Positions 21,043-31,148 of a stretch of 64,000 nt of DNA are shown here, in pieces. This DNA comes from Phyllobacterium myrsinacearum (lineage in GTDB: Bacteria; Pseudomonadota; Alphaproteobacteria; Rhizobiales; Rhizobiaceae), in the NCBI RefSeq assembly GCF_002980555.1, contig NZ_PVBT01000004.1, positions 62,001 through 126,000 of the forward strand. Reading direction: 5' to 3'. The notes beneath the pieces are model-generated. The model saw only the letters and a program-made list of their open reading frames with translations. It did not search any database and was not told the origin of the DNA. Position numbers and translations under genes: made by a program. Every line of letters begins with the position of its first letter. Positions within the stretch are counted from its first letter, which is position 1.

Positions 21043-21219
21043 CCGGTGGCCCGTGACTTGAAGCCATCATCGGCTGTATAAATCGGGACGGCCGCCCTAT
21101 AGAGATGGAAAGGAATGCATCCTGATCGATACGGGAGCGTCGAATTCTTGGGAGGCGACGATGGGCCTGACCGCGCTGCACCGCCAAAGCAACATCATGC
21201 CGGCATAAGGAATTCACAG

Positions 21220-22692
21220 TTGAGATTTTTCGGTTTCTTACTCGGCGCCTACGCCGGACTTTTGGCTCCGGCTTGGTCTGCGGAAAACGTCACGATCCCA
21301 GCCTACGCGCCAGCGCCCGGTGTCGAGCATGTCTATCGCGTTCAGATGGCAAGCGAGACCGACATGTCTTTCTGGTTCGACAACCCGGGCGCGTCGTCCG
21401 TTGCGATGCGCGGCGCGTATCTCCGGCGCATGATCATCTTATCGCGGGATGAGAAGAGCATGCGTGTTCGCTGGTCCCTTGATTCCGCTTTGCCGGAAGG
21501 TGTTTCCGGCGCCGCGTCCACCTATCAGCTCAACCCGCTCTATCAGAATTCTCTGCTGGCCTATGGCGTAAACCAGTTGGAGTTCGAAACAAATTTGAGC
21601 GGAATCCCCTCCAATGTGCTCGGCGCCGATGCGATTGTGGCCAACATGCAGAAAATGGCTGCAAATGGGCCAGGAGGAATATCAGCTGCGCCGGAAAGCG
21701 GCGTCAGTAACATCATAGAAGCGGTGCGCGCAAATCCACTCCAGATCGTCACCGCCCTGATACCGGAGGCGCTGGTGTTGGCAAATGGGCAAGGCGCCAG
21801 CGAAGAGACCCTTGAGATAGCGCAGGCCTATACGTCGTCGGGAACTGAAAGCATTAGTGGTGTCGATGTGCGTGCCGAGATCATCTGGACCCTGGAATCG
21901 ACGGATACGGTCAGGCACACGGCAACTCTGTCTTTCTCTCAAACCGATGACCCCATTGCACTCAGCCAATCGCAGCAGGCGGCGACTGCCAAGATGATGA
22001 CTGCCTTTCCCGAGCGGGCAAAGGCTCTGACAAGCGATCAACTTGCCGAGGTCAAACGCGCAAGCAAGAACCGAACCTCCCGCTTTGTCGTATCTCTGGA
22101 TGATGGTTCGGTCCTGGAAGCATTGGAAACGGTGGCGGTTCGGTCGGGAGGCATGACCGTTCGCACGTTCACTCATGTGCGGCGCGAACAGGTGCCGGTC
22201 AGTCTACCCATTCCCGCTATACTGACATCTGCCACTTTGCTGACACCGGATCTGCGCGTCGAACCGCTGCCGTCAACCACAGCCACGCCAGCACGCGTCA
22301 ACGATGATATTCAGGCATCCGCCCCTCCTGGCGGAACGTCACAGGCCCATGTGGCGGCTGCCGGGAACGAAAACCAGAATACGGTCATAGCGCCCATCTC
22401 GCTTCAGGTGAAAAGCGCGATATTGGGCGCGTCCCCCGTCCATCATGATATTGGTCTGAATATTGACCTCACGCCGGACAGCGCCGCAAAATTCAAGGAC
22501 TTCACCCAGGCCGCCATAGGACAACAAACGCAAGTGTTGATCGACGACAAGGTTATCATGGAACCCTGGATAAGGGAGCCGATCGTCGATGGTCATATTG
22601 TAATAACCGATGCCGATAGGAAGAACTTGGAAATCTTGGCTGAGCGGTTGGCAATACCGGACGCTTCGATCTTCGTTCGTGTGGTGCCGTGA
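21220..22692 (+). CDS. exported protein with SecDF-P1-head-like C-terminal domain
   Basis: 490 residues from a TTG at 21220 (AAGG 9 bp upstream), which places an export signal at the N-terminus (LRFFGFLLGAYAGLLAPAWSAEN). Residues to about 390 are an undescribed periplasmic region without known motif. The last about 95 residues (IGLNIDLTPDSAAKFKDFTQ, then LIDDKVIMEPWIREPIVDGH) resemble the P1 head subdomain of SecD, which normally helps pull exported proteins across the membrane. Here it is detached from any SecD membrane part. An ATG at 21115 would give an unlikely 35-residue charged leader. Function unknown; isolated gene. Confidence 0.7.
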   Translation: MRFFGFLLGAYAGLLAPAWSAENVTIPAYAPAPGVEHVYRVQMASETDMSFWFDNPGASSVAMRGAYLRRMIILSRDEKSMRVRWSLDSALPEGVSGAASTYQLNPLYQNSLLAYGVNQLEFETNLSGIPSNVLGADAIVANMQKMAANGPGGISAAPESGVSNIIEAVRANPLQIVTALIPEALVLANGQGASEETLEIAQAYTSSGTESISGVDVRAEIIWTLESTDTVRHTATLSFSQTDDPIALSQSQQAATAKMMTAFPERAKALTSDQLAEVKRASKNRTSRFVVSLDDGSVLEALETVAVRSGGMTVRTFTHVRREQVPVSLPIPAILTSATLLTPDLRVEPLPSTTATPARVNDDIQASAPPGGTSQAHVAAAGNENQNTVIAPISLQVKSAILGASPVHHDIGLNIDLTPDSAAKFKDFTQAAIGQQTQVLIDDKVIMEPWIREPIVDGHIVITDADRKNLEILAERLAIPDASIFVRVVP

Positions 22693-22847: not shown

Positions 22848-23687
22848 TTAGATATTGATGATGAGGTCTGTGATTTCGGTATTGCGGCTGAAGGCGCGCT
22901 CGGTGTTCCAGCTGAAGGCCGATTGCAGGGATTCGTGATCGATGTGATTGCGGTAGACGGCGGCTGCCTGTGTCCGGTTGTGCACCTTGAGCTTGCGAAT
23001 GAGATTATGGACATGGACCTTGACCGTGTGGTCGGACAGGCTGAGGCGGTCGGCGATGGTTTTGTTCTGCAGCCCTTCGGAGAGCAGCTCGAGAATTTGA
23101 TGTTCGCGCAATGTCAATGTATCGATGGGCTTGGCGGCGGACAGATGCGCCCGTTTGCCGTCCGCCAGAGACGGCTGCTGATGGCGGGCATGGCCGTCCT
23201 TTGCCAGTTTTTCCAGCGACTGCATGACGCCGTAGGGGTAGTATTCGCCGCCATTGAGCAGCAGCCATATGGCAGCCAGCCAGATGTCGAGTTTCAGCGT
23301 GAACGGAAGCAGGCCCTGGATTCTCCGGTCGCAGAACAATCTGTTCAATCCCTGCGATGCACATCCATCGCCATTGATCATCAGCGTGATGGATGCATTG
23401 GGAAAACATATCCGGCAGCGCTCGATGCAGTCGGGAAGATCGGTGATCAGCTCCGTCTGCAGGAGGACCAGGCCGATGCCCGGGTCGGGATCCTGGGCAT
23501 CGGGAAGAAAGCTCGACAGCGTTATCCGGATATCGGCGAATGTTCTTTCCAATGACTTGACCAGTCCCTGGAAAACGACCCCTGTTTCAGCATAAATGAA
23601 GATGCTGTTGTCGGATTTGCTTTCAAAGTTCTTTCCGGGTTCGCTATTCATGCATTCGCTTAGGTTAAAAGGCACATTACTATTCAT
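22848..23687 (-). CDS. LuxR-type regulator with degenerate receiver-like domain
   Basis: 279 residues from the ATG at 23687 (GGGGG five bases upstream); 23699 is an alternative. The N-terminal about 130 residues have the size and pattern of a receiver domain but lack the phospho-accepting Asp (the strand reads LVLLQTEL) and the conserved Lys. The C-terminal GerE/LuxR HTH is intact (TLREHQILELLSEGL, then LSDHTVKVHVHNLIRKLKVHNRTQAA). It faces away from the glycine-rich secretion cluster and has a paralogue at the other end, so it probably controls that cluster in a phosphorylation-independent way. Confidence 0.88.
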   Translation of the reverse strand: MNSNVPFNLSECMNSEPGKNFESKSDNSIFIYAETGVVFQGLVKSLERTFADIRITLSSFLPDAQDPDPGIGLVLLQTELITDLPDCIERCRICFPNASITLMINGDGCASQGLNRLFCDRRIQGLLPFTLKLDIWLAAIWLLLNGGEYYPYGVMQSLEKLAKDGHARHQQPSLADGKRAHLSAAKPIDTLTLREHQILELLSEGLQNKTIADRLSLSDHTVKVHVHNLIRKLKVHNRTQAAAVYRNHIDHESLQSAFSWNTERAFSRNTEITDLIINI

Positions 23688-24314
23688 GCTTGCCCCCATT
23701 TTTGACAGGAATAGACCTGTAAGTTTTTGTTTTTTCGTTATTTTTCACGCGTAATTCAAAATGCCCGTCCGCGCGGCAATGCCCATTCGGCATTAATAAA
23801 GATTAAGTTAATTACTTGGGAGTGACGCGGGCGTGACTTGCCTAGGCTGATTGATAGTCTGTAGCGGTTTCGGATAGGCCGGATAGTTTGCTTGACGCGG
23901 TCCAGGTCATGATTTTGATAGTTCCAAGTTTTTACTTGGGCAGAAAATATAGTCTGATGGGCTTGTTCTGCTTAAACCTTTTGCAGGCATTGGCGGGCAC
24001 GCACCCGAAGGACGCACCGTGCGTGGCAGAAACATAGGCACCCGCCTTTGCCACCGTAGTCCAAAGGTGACCCGGCGCCCACACCAGATTATATCGTTTG
24101 CCTGGAAGATGGGCAGACGTTCCAATCTCTCAAACGCCATATGAATTGGCCTGAAAAGACTACGGTCAAATAGCTATCCCTACAGCCAGATGGCTGTAGA
24201 TGAATTGCAGGCTCTTCTTTTTGCTCATCTGACGGCACAATAAAGTCTGGTCGAGCCATGGGTTTCGTGGAGCTTCGCGAGGCAGATGGTTGCAGCTGAG
24301 GTGGAGTAACGACG
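23688..24314. other. 627-bp AT-rich regulatory gap before the first glycine-rich gene
   Basis: No gene is recognised. It contains an inverted repeat CCAAGT-TTTT-ACTTGG at 23924-23939, the 9-mer TTACTTGGG at 23812-23820 and again at 23932-23940, and the 9-bp-arm palindrome at 24180-24199. These suggest multiple regulator sites between the divergent LuxR gene and the secreted-protein gene. Open frames on the - strand here have no recognisable motifs. Confidence 0.5.
24180..24199. promoter_or_regulatory. palindrome upstream of glycine-rich gene, candidate LuxR site
   Basis: CTACAGCCA and TGGCTGTAG flank a GA centre, perfect 9-bp arms. It lies 115 bp before the ATG at 24315. Length and symmetry resemble LuxR/GerE-type boxes; assignment to the flanking LuxR proteins is inference. 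Confidence 0.5.
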
Positions 24315-25394
24315 ATGGCGGATAACCGTCCCACAACGGAAGGGGTGTTCAGTACGGGCACCAGCCAGAATGCGATTCCGGGTTCCGCCTCGGGACATTT
24401 GGCGCTCGTCCCAACGTGGCTTCCCCTGGAGGTTGTGCCAAGCAGTTCAGCTGGCAGCGGCGGCGACGGCATCGCGATTGGCGTCATAAGCAGCACCCCC
24501 ATGGCTGTCTTCGCGCCTTCAAACGCCGCAATTGCCGGACCGCATGCTGTGGTTGAGGCACTACAGGGCAACAATGCGTTGATGAATCAGCATTCCACCG
24601 AAATAGCTGGTATGGGCGGTAACGGCGGCCTTGGCAACGCTGTGCTCACCGGTGGCGGGGGCGACAATGTCCATCATGCCGGCAGCGGCGGCAACGGGAT
24701 TTTCTACGGCGGCATGGTAAGTTCGGATGTCGGGAGTTTCGTCCCGGTCAATATTGCCGTAGCCGGAGGACCGGGAGCACACGCTATTGCCGATCAATCG
24801 AACAATTCGGCCATGCTGCAGGATGCTACCCAGATCGGTGGGGTCGGCGGCGCTGGCGGCGACCACAATGCAACAATCCATGATTCCCAGGGCGGGTCCG
24901 GGTCTGCGCTCACCTACGGCGGCGACCTGTATGCGGGGCAAGGCGGCAACGGCTATTTCGTCGGTAGTATGATCGACCTGAACGTTGCCATTTTCTCGCC
25001 GATCAATATTGCGGTCGGTGCTGCGGGCGGTTCGGCCGAGGCCCATCAGACCAACAATGCGGTCTTCGACCAGGGCGCCGTTCAAATCGCGGGCATTGGA
25101 GGCAATGGCGGTGGTTTCAATCTTAGCTCCGATACGATTTTCACCGGTGATCATGCCGCTGGCGAAGGCGGATCGGGTTTTTCGAACGGCAGCATGGTGG
25201 ACGTGAATATAGGATATTTCCATCCCATCAACATCGCCGTACCTGCGGGCGGCACGGCCGACGCGCAACAACTTGATCACGTCCTTTACGATCAACATGC
25301 GTTGCAAATGGCAGGCATCGGTGGCCATGGGGGCGATGTCTCGCATGCCCATTCGGCGCTGGTAGACGACATTCTCTCGTTCTTGCATGTGTAA
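24315..25394 (+). CDS. glycine-rich repeat protein, probable type I secretion substrate
   Basis: 359 residues, no N-terminal signal peptide, very rich in Gly, Ala, Asn and Ile. Four tandem repeats begin near residues 46, 122, 207 and 282, each about 75-85 long. Each opens AGxGGxG, then F-x-P-x-N-I-A-V, then N-N and Q-x-A, and closes with IAGxGGxGG. No RTX GGxGxDxxx nonapeptide is seen, so calcium-rolled RTX is not supported. The C-terminus DDILSFLHV ends in acidic then hydrophobic residues, like many type I secretion signals, and resembles the tail of the 25717 product. The PrtD-type transporter and HlyD-type adaptor lie just downstream. Confidence 0.75.
   Translation: MADNRPTTEGVFSTGTSQNAIPGSASGHLALVPTWLPLEVVPSSSAGSGGDGIAIGVISSTPMAVFAPSNAAIAGPHAVVEALQGNNALMNQHSTEIAGMGGNGGLGNAVLTGGGGDNVHHAGSGGNGIFYGGMVSSDVGSFVPVNIAVAGGPGAHAIADQSNNSAMLQDATQIGGVGGAGGDHNATIHDSQGGSGSALTYGGDLYAGQGGNGYFVGSMIDLNVAIFSPINIAVGAAGGSAEAHQTNNAVFDQGAVQIAGIGGNGGGFNLSSDTIFTGDHAAGEGGSGFSNGSMVDVNIGYFHPINIAVPAGGTADAQQLDHVLYDQHALQMAGIGGHGGDVSHAHSALVDDILSFLHV
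24450..25394 (+). repeat. four tandem 75-85-residue repeats inside the glycine-rich gene
   Basis: Repeat units begin at about 24450, 24678, 24933 and 25158. They are clear at protein level (AGxGGxG ... NIAV ... IAGxGGxGG) and diverged at DNA level, indicating old duplication under selection rather than a recent expansion. Confidence 0.75.
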
Positions 25395-25716
25395 GCACAT
25401 GATTTATCGGACGCGGCCGTGGACGAGCATGCCCCGGCGAGCAAAGCCCGGCTAATTTCCATTTCAAATACAATGAAACGTCTGCGGCGAGCAGATCGCC
25501 GTGAAGAGCCGCGCGGCTATAGCCGATCAGATGTCGTGACCATTCGTCCCCCCTATACAGCCATACCCTCCCCAAAAGAACGTCCCCGAATATCTAGCTA
25601 GTTCGCGATGCAAATGGCGGGCACTGTTCCAAGGCGATTATCTTGCTTGGCGATGACATCGCCGGGCACCAGGGCGTGGGAGAAACACCGACAAACGATA
25701 TAAAGGGAGTATAGTT
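25395..25716. other. 322-bp gap between the two glycine-rich genes
   Basis: The first 7 bp form a small hairpin with the end of the upstream gene (CATGTG 25386-25391, CACATG 25396-25401, around the stop codon). No gene is recognised, and the AT-richer right part (about 25600-25700) probably holds the promoter of the second glycine-rich gene. A ribosome site AAAGGGAG precedes its ATG. Confidence 0.4.
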
Positions 25717-26295
25717 ATGCCTATTCCACAATTATCCGATACGATCCAGCTCAATCATGCCAACGCAGGCGATGCAAATGCCGGCAACGGCGGCGACGGT
25801 TATAGCTATGGAGATATCAACTACAATCCCAGTGCGTATGTCGCCAATTCACAGACGGTGTATGGCGCAGATACGGATCTGCACAATGGCGATCACGTTT
25901 GGCAAACTGCGGATTGGGGCGCCGGGCCTGGTGGCCATGGCGGCGCAGCTGAAGCTGAGAACGGGACCCTTTCGTCCATCACGAACAATGGTGCAGGCGG
26001 CGCTGGCGGCGCTTCCACCTCGAATGGGAGTGAGACGAACGGCAGTGGCGGTGACGTAGCAGCAGTTTCTGCAGCAACGACTGCTACCCAGAACACCCAA
26101 TTCTTTGCAGATCAGCATGCCACTATTCTCGCCGGCGTCGGCGGCAATGGCGGTAACGGCAATATTGCACGCGGTGGCGATATCTCGGCTGCAGTGGTTC
26201 ACACCGATCCCACAACGACGACTCAGTCCGTATCAAATACGCTCGATCATTTCGACCACAGCCACGTCGATCTCGATCTGAGCCATTTGATCTGA
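25717..26295 (+). CDS. second glycine-rich protein, probable type I secretion substrate
   Basis: 192 residues, no signal peptide, same style as the 24315 product. It opens with an AGNGGDGYSYGDI block and ends its core with DQHATILAGVGGNGGNGN, that is, one copy of the repeat expanded by a Ser/Thr/Gly-rich insert (about 65-120). The C-terminus HVDLDLSHLI resembles the first protein's tail (LS-x-L followed by a hydrophobic end). It lies 97 bp before the ABC transporter gene and probably shares its transcript, as expected for a type I cargo. Confidence 0.72.
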   Translation: MPIPQLSDTIQLNHANAGDANAGNGGDGYSYGDINYNPSAYVANSQTVYGADTDLHNGDHVWQTADWGAGPGGHGGAAEAENGTLSSITNNGAGGAGGASTSNGSETNGSGGDVAAVSAATTATQNTQFFADQHATILAGVGGNGGNGNIARGGDISAAVVHTDPTTTTQSVSNTLDHFDHSHVDLDLSHLI

Positions 26296-26392
26296 CGCTT
26301 CCGGCCCGTGAGGAACGTCGGGTCCAAACCGACGATCCTCATCGGCGGCCAGGTGTTTGCCTTGTCAGTACCGCGAAAACCGAGATCTGATA

Positions 26393-28108
26393 ATGACAAC
26401 GAATATCATACAATCCGAGCGCCAACCGACGCATCTGGTCGTGGCCCTTCGAGCCTGCGCAGGCGCTTTTGGCTTGGTTTTCATTTACAGTTGCGGTTAC
26501 AATATCTTTCTACTCGCACCGTCGATCTATCTTCTCCAGATCTATGACCGCGTCCTGTCGAGCAGGAGCACCGACACGCTGCTGATGTTGACGCTTGTCA
26601 TCGCCGTTGCTGTCGTTGTCGGCTCGGTGCTCGATATCGTGCGCCGCGCGGCGCTTACCCGTATTGGCAGTTGGCTCGATCATCGATTGCGGCCAGTTGT
26701 CCTGACCGCCGCGTTCGAATATGCAGCAAGGGTCAATACGAGTGTTGCCGCCGATTGCTATCGGGATCTCGCTTCGCTGCGTCAATTTCTCGATTCCCCT
26801 GCGAGCTCGCTGCTTTTCGACATACCGTGGGCGCCGGTCTTCCTGCTTCTGCTTTTTCTCGTTCACCCTCTGCTTGGAGCAATTGGCCTCTTGAGCGCGC
26901 TTATACTGCTGTTTCTGGCTGTTCTGACCGAGCTTGCGACACGTGAACCGCTTACCCATGCAAGTGCAGCACTGGCGCGGAGCTACTCCCGGTTTGGAAC
27001 GGCGCTGAAATACATCCAAGTGGTCCGGGCAATGGGCATGCAGGATGGTGCCGCGCAGATCGTCTACCGCGATGCGGAGTTTGCGCGAATGGCACAGGAC
27101 AACGCGATGCACCGGACCGAGATCATCCTTGGCTTCTCGAAATCCATCCGCACGCTGACGCAAATTCTGGTGATGGGTGCCGCCACGTGGCTGGTGCTTG
27201 CCGACGGCAGCAGCCCTGGCATTATTTTCGTCGCCAGCCTGGTGCTGGGCCGTGGGCTCACGCCGATCGAGGGGGCAATCGGCGCTTGGCGTTCCTTCGC
27301 TTACGCGCGCAGCGCTTTCAACCGTCTCAACAGGATGCTGATTGCCGTCGCATCGGATGCCGGGTCGCGCATGGTACCGGTGCCTGAATCCAGCAGCCTC
27401 GTGCTTCAGAATGTGAGCTTCGCCATGCCGTACGCCGACCGGCACATATTGAATGATGTTTCATTGCGCCTCGCGCCTGGTGATTGCGTAGCGCTTATCG
27501 GTTCGTCAGGGTCCGGCAAATCGACGCTTGGACGGGTCATGGCCGGCGTCCTGCAACCGACGAGCGGAAGCGCTCTGCTTGGCGGCGTGGATATATCCGC
27601 CCTACGTCTTTGCGGAGGCACACGCCATATCGGATACCTGCCGCAGGACATCGAGTTGTTCGGCGGCGCAATCAAGGATGTGATCGGCCGGCTTGATGGC
27701 GCCGATTCCACCAAGGCAGTCGACGCAGCCAAACTCGTCGGTCTGCATGAAGCCATCATGCGCCTCCCGCAGGGCTACGAGACCGACATCGGCGAAGGCG
27801 GCAGTTTGCTCCTGCGTGCACAGCGACAGCAGCTGGGGCTGGCAAGGGCGGCTTACGGCAATCCAGCCCTTGTCGTGCTTGATGATCCAAACTCAAGTCT
27901 GGACTATGACGGCGAGCGTGTTCTGTTCAATGCGATTCAGCGCATGAGAGCCAAGCGGATGACGGTTGTCATTATCACGCACCGGTTGGGCGTTCTTCCA
28001 GTCACCAACAAAATTGCGATCATGCGGAACGGCAGCATCGATGCTTTCGGAGACAGTGACGAAATTTACGACGCCTATCTTCAACCGCCAGCACGAACAG
28101 GGACATAG
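26393..28108 (+). CDS. type I secretion ABC transporter/permease (PrtD type) with degenerate ABC motifs
   Basis: 571-residue half transporter: about six membrane helices (to about residue 300, SIYLLQIYDRVLSSRSTDTLL is the PrtD hallmark) then a nucleotide-binding domain. Walker A is GSSGSGKST, the Q-loop LPQDIELF and the H-loop ITHR are intact. The signature LSGGQ, however, is replaced by LLRAQ, and Walker B reads LVVLDDPNSSLD, with Asp where the catalytic Glu should be. It may hydrolyse ATP slowly or pair with another subunit. The start is the ATG at 26393, not the one at 26357. It is followed 11 bp later by the HlyD gene. Confidence 0.88.
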   Translation: MTTNIIQSERQPTHLVVALRACAGAFGLVFIYSCGYNIFLLAPSIYLLQIYDRVLSSRSTDTLLMLTLVIAVAVVVGSVLDIVRRAALTRIGSWLDHRLRPVVLTAAFEYAARVNTSVAADCYRDLASLRQFLDSPASSLLFDIPWAPVFLLLLFLVHPLLGAIGLLSALILLFLAVLTELATREPLTHASAALARSYSRFGTALKYIQVVRAMGMQDGAAQIVYRDAEFARMAQDNAMHRTEIILGFSKSIRTLTQILVMGAATWLVLADGSSPGIIFVASLVLGRGLTPIEGAIGAWRSFAYARSAFNRLNRMLIAVASDAGSRMVPVPESSSLVLQNVSFAMPYADRHILNDVSLRLAPGDCVALIGSSGSGKSTLGRVMAGVLQPTSGSALLGGVDISALRLCGGTRHIGYLPQDIELFGGAIKDVIGRLDGADSTKAVDAAKLVGLHEAIMRLPQGYETDIGEGGSLLLRAQRQQLGLARAAYGNPALVVLDDPNSSLDYDGERVLFNAIQRMRAKRMTVVIITHRLGVLPVTNKIAIMRNGSIDAFGDSDEIYDAYLQPPARTGT

Positions 28109-28119
28109 GAGGCAGCAAA

Positions 28120-29559
28120 ATGGCCCTCGTTCAATTCGACATGCCGCTCAAGTTTTCAGGTGTGTTTAATACTTTGCGCCACGCCGTGGTAAAGCCGGGT
28201 CAAACGAAGAAGCACTTTGTCTATGTGCCGGTTGCTGGACCAAACAACGGAGCGCTAGCTCCTGCTTCCCCAATGCCGAGGCTTCGAAACGTTGCCTTGT
28301 TAGGCAACCTGTTGATCGGCGTCTTCATTATTGGCCTAGGCACCTGGTCGGTCCTTGCGCCACTCAAAAGCGCGGCAATCGCCGCAGGCGTTGTCGAGCC
28401 TGAAACAAGCCGCAAGGTCATCCAACATCTGGAAGGGGGTATCGTGCGGCAAATCCTCATCAAGAACGGCGATACCGTGAAAGCCGGCCAGCTCCTCTTC
28501 CAGCTAGACGACACGAAATCACGGTCGGAGCGCGACAGTCTCCAGGGACAGCTCTGGGATGCCAAGGCAAGTCAGGCGCGCCTGAGTGCGGAACAGAGGG
28601 GTAGCGAGCGAGTTGCCTATAGTGCGGATCTCGAAACCCTCAGAGTGACCAATCCGGCAATCGAGGGCATTCTTGACGGACAACAGCACATCTTCGAGAC
28701 GCGCCGGCTGGTGATGAAATCCGAGATCGCCATCACACAGAAGAAAATGGATCAGGTGCAGGAGGAAATTTCAGGTCTCATGGCGCAGAAGGCGGCGCTG
28801 ACGCAGAGAGTGGAAATCGCACGGCAGGAGCTCGATGCCGTCGGCCCGTTGGCGGCCAAGGGGCTTGAACGAAAGACCGGGCTGCTTGTTCTCGAGAGGG
28901 AAATAGCAGATCTCGACGGTCAGCTCGGGGAAGTCGTCGCCCAGATATCGCGCGCATACCAGGTCATCAGCGAAAGCCAAGCCTATCTTGTGAAAATCGA
29001 AAGTGACCGGTTAAACGAAGTCGCTCAAGGCATGCGCGACGCTGAAGGCCAGATATTGCAACTGAGCGAAAGACTACGGGCAATAGACGATCAGCTCGCG
29101 CGGACTGAAATCAGGGCGCCCGAGGATGGGGTGGTCATTGATCTGCGTATTCACACTGCCGGCGGCATTATTGGTGCGGGCGAGCCGCTCGTCGATCTCG
29201 TACCGCGTAACGGCAATCTTGTTGTGTCGGCACATGTGCGGCCAGAAGATATCAATCGCGTCCATTCAGGGCTTGAGGCGCAGATTCATCTGCTTCCCTA
29301 CAACCAACGTCGCGTACCATTGTTGAAAGGTATGGTCGAATACGTCTCTGCCGATCGCCTCGTTGATAAGCAAAGCGGCCAACCCTACTACGCCGCAACA
29401 ATCCGCGTGACCGACGAACGGCTGGCAAAAATACACGATGTCACGCTGATTCCGGGCATGCCTGCACAGGCGCTGATCGAAACCGGGGAGAGCAGTGTGG
29501 CATTTTACGCCGTCAGGCCGCTCCTCGACAGTTTCACCCGCGCGTTTCGCGAAGATTGA
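28120..29559 (+). CDS. HlyD-family membrane fusion protein of the type I system
   Basis: 479-residue periplasmic adaptor. One N-terminal membrane anchor (about 57-79, LLGNLLIGVFIIGLGTWSVLAP) precedes the lipoyl-like HLEGGIVRQILIKNGDTVKAGQ segment, a long coiled-coil hairpin (about 130-320), a second lipoyl half (TEIRAPEDGVVIDL) and the beta-barrel end. This is the prtE/hlyD arrangement that bridges the ABC transporter to a TolC-like outer-membrane channel, which is not in this window. AGGAGG precedes the ATG. It is co-transcribed with the transporter. Confidence 0.93.
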   Translation: MALVQFDMPLKFSGVFNTLRHAVVKPGQTKKHFVYVPVAGPNNGALAPASPMPRLRNVALLGNLLIGVFIIGLGTWSVLAPLKSAAIAAGVVEPETSRKVIQHLEGGIVRQILIKNGDTVKAGQLLFQLDDTKSRSERDSLQGQLWDAKASQARLSAEQRGSERVAYSADLETLRVTNPAIEGILDGQQHIFETRRLVMKSEIAITQKKMDQVQEEISGLMAQKAALTQRVEIARQELDAVGPLAAKGLERKTGLLVLEREIADLDGQLGEVVAQISRAYQVISESQAYLVKIESDRLNEVAQGMRDAEGQILQLSERLRAIDDQLARTEIRAPEDGVVIDLRIHTAGGIIGAGEPLVDLVPRNGNLVVSAHVRPEDINRVHSGLEAQIHLLPYNQRRVPLLKGMVEYVSADRLVDKQSGQPYYAATIRVTDERLAKIHDVTLIPGMPAQALIETGESSVAFYAVRPLLDSFTRAFRED

Positions 29560-29659
29560 CGCGACACAGGCGATCCATTCCGGCAATGGCATCGCCGGTT
29601 ATATTCGGGACTGTGTTTTTGCCAGTTGGCCACTGTCGTCATGCAAAGCAATGCATGAG

Positions 29660-30388
29660 TTATTGCACGGAAATGTCTGGCGTTGCTTTTTGCCCGAGCC
29701 GGGCGACCACTTCGGTCCTATTCTGCACCTGCAGTTTTCGCATGATGTGCTGCAAATGCATTTTCACTGTATGATCCGAAAGATTCAGCTTGCACGCTAT
29801 GACCTTGTTGGGATGTCCGCATTGCAGTTCCGCAAGAACATCCGCTTCGCGTGGGGTGAAGTCCGCAATTGACATGAAATGTGTATTGTTCTCGATTATT
29901 TTGTGCGGCGTATTCTGGGGTTTGCTTCGCATTGCTGAAGCGTTCGGGTGTGCGACGAATGGATGGGGATAGAAAACACCACCGGCAAGGATGAGTCTCA
30001 TCCCCGCAAGCGCGATATCGATCGGAATTGAGGTTGTGAAGTAGCCGCGTATACCCATCTCAAGTGCCTGAGAGGCCGCCAAGACATCGTCCGTGTTGGA
30101 GAGAAGGGCGATCGAAGCCTCAGGAAATGTGTGTCGAATGAAATCAAGATCGTGGCACAGACTGGCGCTCGCGAGAGTTCTTCCAGCCATGTCCAGCGCA
30201 ATGAGATGCACATCCATTCCGAGGGCACTATCGAGAGTCTCGACAGAGACCATATCGATCAGATCCCAACCTGCAAGCTCGTGCTGGAGAAGCCGGATGA
30301 TCGTTGTACGCACGAGTGTATGCGGTTCTATGATGATTGCGGCCGGCGCATTGTGTGCCTTGCGGCGTTTCGCATCTTGACCGATGGA
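29660..30388 (-). CDS. second LuxR-type regulator with degenerate receiver-like domain
   Basis: 242 residues from a GTG at 30388 (GGGAG seven bases upstream; a TTG at 30433 is a weaker option). The receiver-like N-terminus has EPH where the acidic pair would be and lacks the conserved Lys (GYFTTSI), although an Asp is present in IALDMAG. The LuxR HTH at the C-terminus is intact (TPREADVLAELQCGH, then LSDHTVKMHLQHIMRKLQVQNRTEVV) and close to the one at 22848. It converges on the HlyD gene, closing the secretion cluster between two paralogous regulators. Confidence 0.88.
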   Translation of the reverse strand, partial: SIGQDAKRRKAHNAPAAIIIEPHTLVRTTIIRLLQHELAGWDLIDMVSVETLDSALGMDVHLIALDMAGRTLASASLCHDLDFIRHTFPEASIALLSNTDDVLAASQALEMGIRGYFTTSIPIDIALAGMRLILAGGVFYPHPFVAHPNASAMRSKPQNTPHKIIENNTHFMSIADFTPREADVLAELQCGHPNKVIACKLNLSDHTVKMHLQHIMRKLQVQNRTEVVARLGQKATPDISVQ

Positions 30389-30598
30389 CACCTGTTGCTC
30401 CCTGTTTGGATGTATTCCAATTCGTTTTAACAACCCATATTATTCCGGTTCTTTCTTCATGTCATGATTAGAGGGGGATTAACGCCCACGTGACATCCGC
30501 ATACATCGATTGGGTTACATACGCCTTCCATTTCCTGCCGATCCACAGATCCGACCGCCTGTTCCAGGCAGCCAATCCGAAGTCGGGCGCCTTGAAAC

Positions 30599-30940
30599 CT
30601 AAATGATGTTCATGAGGTTTTCATATTCCTGCTCTGCCACGCCATAGTAACCCCCGGCGTCTTCGATCAAGCCAACGCGATTGAGAACGGTTGTCTTTCC
30701 GCGGGACGAACGAATGTAACCTTTGCCTTCCAGGACATGGAGTGTTTCCGTGACCCGCGGCCGGCGCACGCCAAGCATGACCGACATGAATTCGTGCGTC
30801 AGAGAGAGGTCATTTCCATTTGTGCGATCATGCACCATCAGGAGCCACCGGGCCAACGAGCATCTGAACTAGGAGCCAATTGATGGCGTTGGCCGATATG
30901 TGCGGCGCTGTAGCACGATCAATCGGTGCGATTCACAAGG
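30599..30940 (-). pseudogene. Crp/Fnr-family regulator remnant
   Basis: LARWLLMVHDR, LSLTHEFMSVMLGVRRPRVTETLHVLEGKGYIRSSRGKTTVLNRVGLI is the HTH_Crp half of a Crp/Fnr protein, here in 85 codons with the cyclic-nucleotide domain missing. Upstream, residues resembling the preceding helix (ATAPHISANAINWLLVQM) continue in a shifted frame, and an in-frame TAG precedes LARW, so the gene is frameshifted and truncated. It lies at the junction between the secretion cluster and the copper module, evidence for old rearrangement there. Confidence 0.75.
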
Positions 30941-30944
30941 GCGA

Positions 30945-31148
30945 GCAGTGTCACATCACCCGGATGACCGGCTATTACCACAGTGCCTTATAGACGCTGA
31001 AGCATTCATGCATGCCAATGTGGGCAATAAAATCGCTCTTTCAGACATTGCCGGTGCCGTGGGTTGCAGCGAACAAGCTCTACTTCGGATGTTTCAAGAG
31101 TATCGGGAGATGGATCCCTTGGCCATTCTTTCAGTGCTGCGGGATTGA
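30945..31148 (+). pseudogene. AraC-family regulator fragment
   Basis: DAEAFMHANVGNKIALSDIAGAVGCSEQALLRMFQEYREMDPLAIL matches the first HTH of AraC/XylS proteins, but both the N-terminal effector domain and the second HTH are missing; the frame stops after SVLRD. With the Crp remnant just to the left it marks a decayed boundary next to the copper genes. Confidence 0.7.

Follow-up and report, generated by a model that had tools for sequence, protein, structure and literature searches.

Comparative genomics points to two glycine-rich repeat proteins as the probable cargo of the TobDE type I secretion system

Three AprD-type genes have been described in Rhizobium leguminosarum bv. viciae 3841 (RL0072, RL0623 and RL3658), and in 2008 Krehenbrink and Downie named one of them tobD as part of the tobDE pair (RL0623/RL0622) (PMC2275737). 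In the available portions of that paper, the authors did not find the cargo of TobDE, termed the system enigmatic, and noted that no gene for a known type I substrate lies within 10 kb of tobDE (PMC2275737). Two other systems resemble it. PrsDE and PrtDE, which export RTX and Ra/cadherin-like proteins of rhizobia, likewise combine a PrtD-type ATP-binding cassette (ABC) transporter with an HlyD-type adaptor. In Cdz of Caulobacter, the genes for two glycine-rich proteins neighbor a type I ABC/HlyD pair, and Cdz-like toxins are described, in the available part of the source, as 60-151 residues long with a leader ending in G[G/A/S] and with glycine zippers (PMC5380434). Here we analyze a locus in a 64,000-nucleotide stretch of Phyllobacterium myrsinacearum (NCBI RefSeq assembly GCF_002980555.1, contig NZ_PVBT01000004.1, positions 62,001 to 126,000, forward strand), hereafter the window, that encodes two glycine-rich proteins, GlyA and GlyB, next to a TobDE-type pair. 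We put the probability at roughly 0.8 that this locus, the tob module, encodes a type I secretion system dedicated to GlyA and GlyB, acidic glycine-rich repeat proteins, as its cargo. The predicted assignment of both proteins to TobDE is strongly supported by genomics; the analysis shows conserved linkage, the sequence features described below, and a broken cargo gene where the transporter is lost.

The window locus has the same transporter and adaptor as TobDE of strain 3841. The window PrtD and HlyD proteins are 80% and 67% identical to their counterparts in strain 3841, whose genes lie on the chromosome at 669-673 kb (locus L018 in our set). We found three loci above the PrtD cut-off in the 3841 genome, at 91.5, 670.9 and 3854 kb, with GlyA and GlyB adjoining the one at 670.9 kb. 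Judged by sequence, the window pair is the TobDE ortholog and the three loci match the three AprD-type genes, the 3841 locus tags being deduced from gene order and not read from annotation. The first-pass annotation of this DNA knew of no named system with this combination, a statement that does not hold: TobDE had already been named, and Cdz has a similar gene plan (PMC5380434). What is new here, relative to the available portions of the 2008 paper, is the assignment of GlyA and GlyB, the degenerate ATP site of TobD, and a conserved element ahead of GlyA. A literature search, with subscription papers outside its coverage, found no publication naming the TobDE cargo.

The locus contains six genes in the order luxR, GlyA, GlyB, PrtD-type ABC, hlyD and luxR, with coordinates and strands as first annotated. 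GlyA (24315..25394, +) has 359 residues and four glycine-rich repeats, and GlyB (25717..26295, +), the second predicted cargo, has 192 residues in a similar style. The TobD-type exporter gene (26357..28108, +) matched TIGR01842 (PrtD) with 538.5 bits against a cut-off of 510.15, and the adjacent gene for a TobE-type periplasmic adaptor (28120..29559, +) matched TIGR01843 with 368 bits against a cut-off of 208.65, in agreement with the PrtD and HlyD types proposed for them. Two loci for TolC-type channels scored above the cut-off in the window genome, both on other contigs.

To follow the module across genomes, we searched one genome per species for relatives of GlyA, found 109, and fetched the best 80 from named genomes. 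The glycine-rich proteins travel with the transporter: GlyA, GlyB, PrtD and HlyD lie close together in 79 of the 80 loci, from Rhizobium, Phyllobacterium, Ensifer/Sinorhizobium and Bradyrhizobium. The sole exception, L070, comes from a contig that stops 215 bases past GlyA. GlyB, PrtD and HlyD share a strand in 79/79 loci, and the downstream regulator gene, LuxRb, is opposite to HlyD in 78/78. The linkage survives rearrangement: GlyA and GlyB are divergent in 46 of 79 loci and collinear in 33, yet the genes stay together. All five genes are under purifying selection, with a median ratio of nonsynonymous to synonymous substitution rates (dN/dS) of 0.13-0.21, calculated without Bradyrhizobium from pairs whose dS was 0.1-1.5. 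In a quick first look that may miss remote relatives, a GlyA profile at E<=1e-10 matched 6 of 397 genomes sampled from the order and 4 of 398 sampled from the phylum, all within two families.

The same association was seen in a family sample of 151 genomes, the window's own included, where GlyA occurs in five. A TobD more than 70% identical occurs in four genomes, the window's own among them, all of which have GlyA 1.0-1.3 kb away, compared with GlyA in 1 of the 147 others (Fisher p 2e-7). In that fifth genome, G051, GlyA is split over two frames, and its contig stops 343 bases away; within the 15 kb retrieved there, TobD and HlyD gave no match and the sole ABC ATPase hit was 27% identical, although the contig end could hide genes. 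The best TobD-like protein elsewhere in G051 is 45% identical. GlyA also matched 17 plasmid records, and eight of the ten inspected carry a complete module (L007-L009, L108-L110, L113 and L114). The 16 kb retrieved around the plasmid locus L111 contain GlyA fragments and part of GlyB but no transporter; L112 has a deletion that fuses the first 157 GlyA codons to the HlyD gene. In the overall collection, some loci represent one place retrieved by two different tools. Altogether, three tob loci are decayed, with a broken GlyA and the transporter missing or partly deleted (L103 13634-14658; L111 7501-8889; L112 8001-9653). GlyA homologues commonly found without the transporter were named at the outset as the observation that would speak against GlyA as cargo; we did not see this, and the three GlyA genes without an intact transporter are all broken.

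These results bear on whether the genes are accidental neighbors and the transporter exports something other than the glycine-rich proteins. Such a view would fit the tobD mutants, which showed no visible protein export defect and for which the authors, in the available text, allowed a non-protein cargo (PMC2275737). It is difficult to reconcile with the finding that 79 of the 80 loci, from Rhizobium to Bradyrhizobium, keep the genes together despite internal rearrangement, and with the joint decay of GlyA and the transporter. We therefore regard it as very improbable.

The sequences of GlyA and GlyB set them apart from RTX cargo. As first noted, both are rich in glycine (20%, 71/359, in GlyA; 17%, 32/192, in GlyB), and the RTX pattern GGxGxDxU occurs in neither. 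We rejected the RTX cargo class for want of GGxGxDxUx nonapeptides, in which the tob cargo differs from that of PrsDE/PrtDE. GG.GG motifs number five in GlyA against 0.5 in composition shuffles and three in GlyB against 0.1, values reached in 0/1000 shuffles for either protein. GlyA consists of four copies of a unit of about 75 residues (range about 65-85), which reads AGxGGxG...G......F.P.N.A.......A..Q.NN....Q....AG.GG.GG in the alignment. By that alignment the copies span residues 46-121 (24450..24677), 122-206 (24678..24932), 207-280 (24933..25154) and 281-345 (25155..25349), followed by a tail of residues 346-359 (25350..25391), all on the + strand. This tail may serve as a type I signal: a SALVDDIL-like end is conserved in the Rhizobiaceae rows, and residues 347-357 are modeled as a helix with low confidence. 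By eye, and with no predictor run, neither protein has a signal peptide. GlyB aligned to GlyA with 58 bits in BLASTP, a score that leaves their common descent less than firm because composition correction and filter were off.

We found no Pfam family for GlyA or GlyB at E<=0.1, and NCBIfam gave nothing for GlyA and, for GlyB, a single match well short of the cut-off. Of 23 GlyA members, 14 matched Pfam DUF4774, with a best E of 2.5e-4; the window GlyA was not among them, and the match was treated as low-complexity similarity. Searches of PDB sequences for relatives of GlyA gave chance-like matches only, the best being a ribosomal protein (E 0.007). Public records label GlyB homologues (L007 7961-8530; L008 7803-8375) 'PE-PGRS family protein', a misleading label borrowed from mycobacteria.

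The gene plan is also that of cdzABCD, with two glycine-rich genes beside ABC and HlyD genes, and a Cdz-like contact-killing bacteriocin would have two exported glycine-rich proteins aggregate on the producer and kill its neighbors. However, at 359 and 192 residues GlyA and GlyB are longer than the 60-151 residues of Cdz-like toxins, and the glycine zipper was rejected for both, since GxxxGxxxG is not above shuffles (none in GlyA, shuffle mean 2.7; one in GlyB, shuffle mean 0.8). Nor did a crude scan of open reading frames of at least 35 residues around 83 loci, in which the eight next clusters were judged by hydropathy and position with up to six members each, reveal a recurrent small membrane protein as an immunity candidate. 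The recurrent extra gene around these loci encodes instead an IS3 OrfA-like protein (see below). We consider a bacteriocin quite unlikely.

In the structure model of GlyA, each repeat has three to four strands, and the core blocks mostly have a predicted local distance difference test score (pLDDT) of 63-87, with uncertain linkers. The nearest folds are mostly beta-solenoids, including FapC and CsgA, all below significance. A beta-solenoid is thus weakly predicted for the GlyA repeats, a lead rather than a result because the fold matches are not significant and the model is weak. A sharper form of our proposal, compatible with it, is a functional amyloid in which GlyA and GlyB form curli- or Fap-like fibers exported by a type I system. 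The tob module has in common with curli (CsgA/CsgD) and Fap the predicted Gln/Asn-containing beta-repeats and a LuxR-type regulator nearby. In contrast to curli and Fap genes, which go with CsgG or FapF as exporter, the tob genes adjoin a type I exporter, and the fold match is weak and comes with no sequence match; 23 GlyA members had no Pfam match to curlin or Fap repeats at E<=1. We regard amyloid fibers as possible rather than probable.

We propose that the ABC exporter TobD and the adaptor TobE would work with a TolC-type channel encoded elsewhere, and that GlyA and GlyB would leave the cell unfolded, guided by C-terminal signals. Outside they would fold into a beta-solenoid-like repeat structure and remain attached to the cell surface or become part of the matrix. 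LuxRb would control the module through the conserved element before GlyA. A surface or extracellular matrix role for GlyA and GlyB is plausible.

The most surprising feature of the locus is TobD itself. Walker A, the Q-loop and the H-loop are kept in nearly all copies, and the window TobD has a degenerate ABC signature, LLRAQ in place of the family LSGGQ (27809..27823, +), and an Asp at the position of the Walker B catalytic Glu (27884..27886, +). Among 70 Rhizobiaceae TobD, the window included, the signature is LLRAQ in 68, LLRSQ in one and LLRAE in one, and the Glu is Asp in 70/70. The ten Bradyrhizobium copies have LPRGF (5), FSRGY (4) or LSRGF (1), with the Glu kept in 10/10. TobD is in this respect unlike its paralogues: in strain 3841, PrsD and ToaD have LSGGQ or LSAGQ and the Glu, and so do the other two PrtD-type proteins encoded in the window genome. 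A canonical signature with the Walker B Glu is usual in type I exporters, though not formally defining, and TobD lacks it. This motif loss does not reflect decay, because purifying selection acts on TobD (median dN/dS of 0.13 over 37 sequences). We also rejected pseudogenes as an explanation for the stops in 4 of 80 extracted TobD stretches. The window frame begins with TTG and its first ATG is codon 13 (26393); in four relatives a stop at aligned residue 7-8 lies upstream of this point, making the ATG the likelier start and the stops a boundary effect. If TobD works as a homodimer, neither of its ATP sites would be typical. To our knowledge no type I exporter with such degenerate sites has been described, although the literature was not searched for one. 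One tentative and rather doubtful explanation is that TobD is a dedicated exporter whose two degenerate sites have been maintained by selection in Rhizobiaceae. It would slowly move a nearly Lys-free, amyloid-like matrix protein, or do so by a non-classical ATP cycle, or act with an unknown canonical ABC partner.

Ahead of GlyA we found a conserved element, ATTGCAGGCTCTTCTTTT (24204..24221, +), which starts 111 bases before the start codon. The window has one site at <=3 mismatches, compared with 0.04 expected. At <=2 mismatches the element is present in 72 of 96 sequences, one copy each; the 24 lacking it comprise those of Bradyrhizobium and nine from Rhizobiaceae (L044, L054, L058, L060, L064, L106, L108, L112 and L114), and the match is exact in 19 of 114 loci. 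An overlapping 16-mer, GAATTGCAGGCTCTTC, has its only exact match in the window genome at this site, and at <=2 mismatches it has 11 sites versus 2 for a control. Close by is a near-palindrome, CTACAGCCAGATGGCTGTAG (24180..24199), imperfect at its center, that may be a regulator site; relatives carry the related sequence CCxAATGG..GTAG. We looked for a sigma-54 promoter upstream of GlyA and rejected it (0 of 71 upstream regions).

LuxR-type regulators had been proposed as paralogs at both ends of the locus. Both do contain a GerE domain and are distant paralogs (36% identity over 154 residues), but they are not a conserved pair, because the upstream luxR is not conserved. LuxRb (29660..30433, -) is kept in 78 of 80 loci, L027 and L070 being cut by a contig end. 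LuxRa (22848..23699, -; GerE 72.9 bits), which has a degenerate receiver, gave in 83 loci a single match apart from LuxRb, a 69-residue stretch in L043. The LuxRb receiver is also degenerate: its ten commonest variants (52 of 56 sequences) lack the conserved Lys, although the phospho-acceptor Asp is present in most sequences by alignment to NarL. Control of LuxRb by phosphorylation is, from these residues, doubtful. Binding of cyclic di-GMP, as in VpsT or CsgD, was considered and is not claimed: a literature search for the motif gave no match, and it does not appear in the available part of PMC3359988.

Several points weigh against TobDE as the exporter of GlyA and GlyB. Export of both is predicted from genomics, and the degenerate ATP sites make transport by TobD uncertain. 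The locus set was chosen through GlyA, as the best 80 of 109. Structure prediction gave a weak model for GlyA (mean pLDDT 54.9, predicted template modeling score 0.46) and an unusable one for GlyB (mean pLDDT 33.2). In the available account, tobD::Tn5 left supernatant proteins on denaturing polyacrylamide gels (SDS-PAGE), biofilm rings and nodulation unchanged, and double and triple mutants of tobD with prsD and toaD resembled the prsD mutant (PMC2275737).

The composition of the proteins may explain why the cargo was overlooked in 2008. The window GlyA and GlyB have no Cys, no Lys and one Arg each. Outside Bradyrhizobium, GlyA has 1-2 Lys and Arg residues in 70 loci, and 69 GlyB have 0-5, with a median of 1. 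Unlike these nearly Lys-free Rhizobiaceae proteins, GlyB of ten Bradyrhizobium loci (L080-L089) has 9-15; Cys occurs in 2 of 10 Bradyrhizobium GlyA. The predicted tryptic pieces of the 3841 proteins are 13 and 348 residues for GlyA and 64, 17, 8 and 102 for GlyB. With almost no Lys or Arg, the Rhizobiaceae GlyA and GlyB would hardly be visible to tryptic fingerprinting, and since Coomassie binds basic residues, poor staining is expected. The near-absence of trypsin sites may thus account for the missed cargo, with low expression or retention at the cell surface as further possible reasons.

Several neighboring genes were also observed. The orphan IS3 OrfA-like gene (HTH_Tnp_1, 89-93 residues; for example L010 15357-15638) lies directly after hlyD, with which it often overlaps, in 68 of 80 loci. 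Where the loci are collinear, as in L010 and L047, LuxRb follows so closely that it leaves no room for orfB; divergent loci were not scanned for orfB. The OrfA-like protein may be a domesticated DNA-binding protein, as suggested by a median dN/dS of 0.13 among its 70 copies. The gene is absent from the Bradyrhizobium loci, L074 and the contig-cut L070. It was not found in the window, and one search without a positive control found none in the window genome. Beside the window locus lie a short Crp-type helix-turn-helix fragment (30599-30856, -) and a short open reading frame that by eye resembles the start of an AraC-type regulator (30900-31148, +), both possible gene remnants. On the other side, a 525-residue protein (21115-22692, +) has a domain like the SecDF P1 head near its C-terminus, without a full SecD match.

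Taken together, these comparisons offer an answer, open to experimental testing, to the published question of what TobDE exports. They add a non-RTX, non-zipper repeat family to the likely type I cargo of legume symbionts. Further, an exporter that is conserved despite degenerate ATP sites would allow the need for the ABC signature and the catalytic Glu in protein export to be tested.

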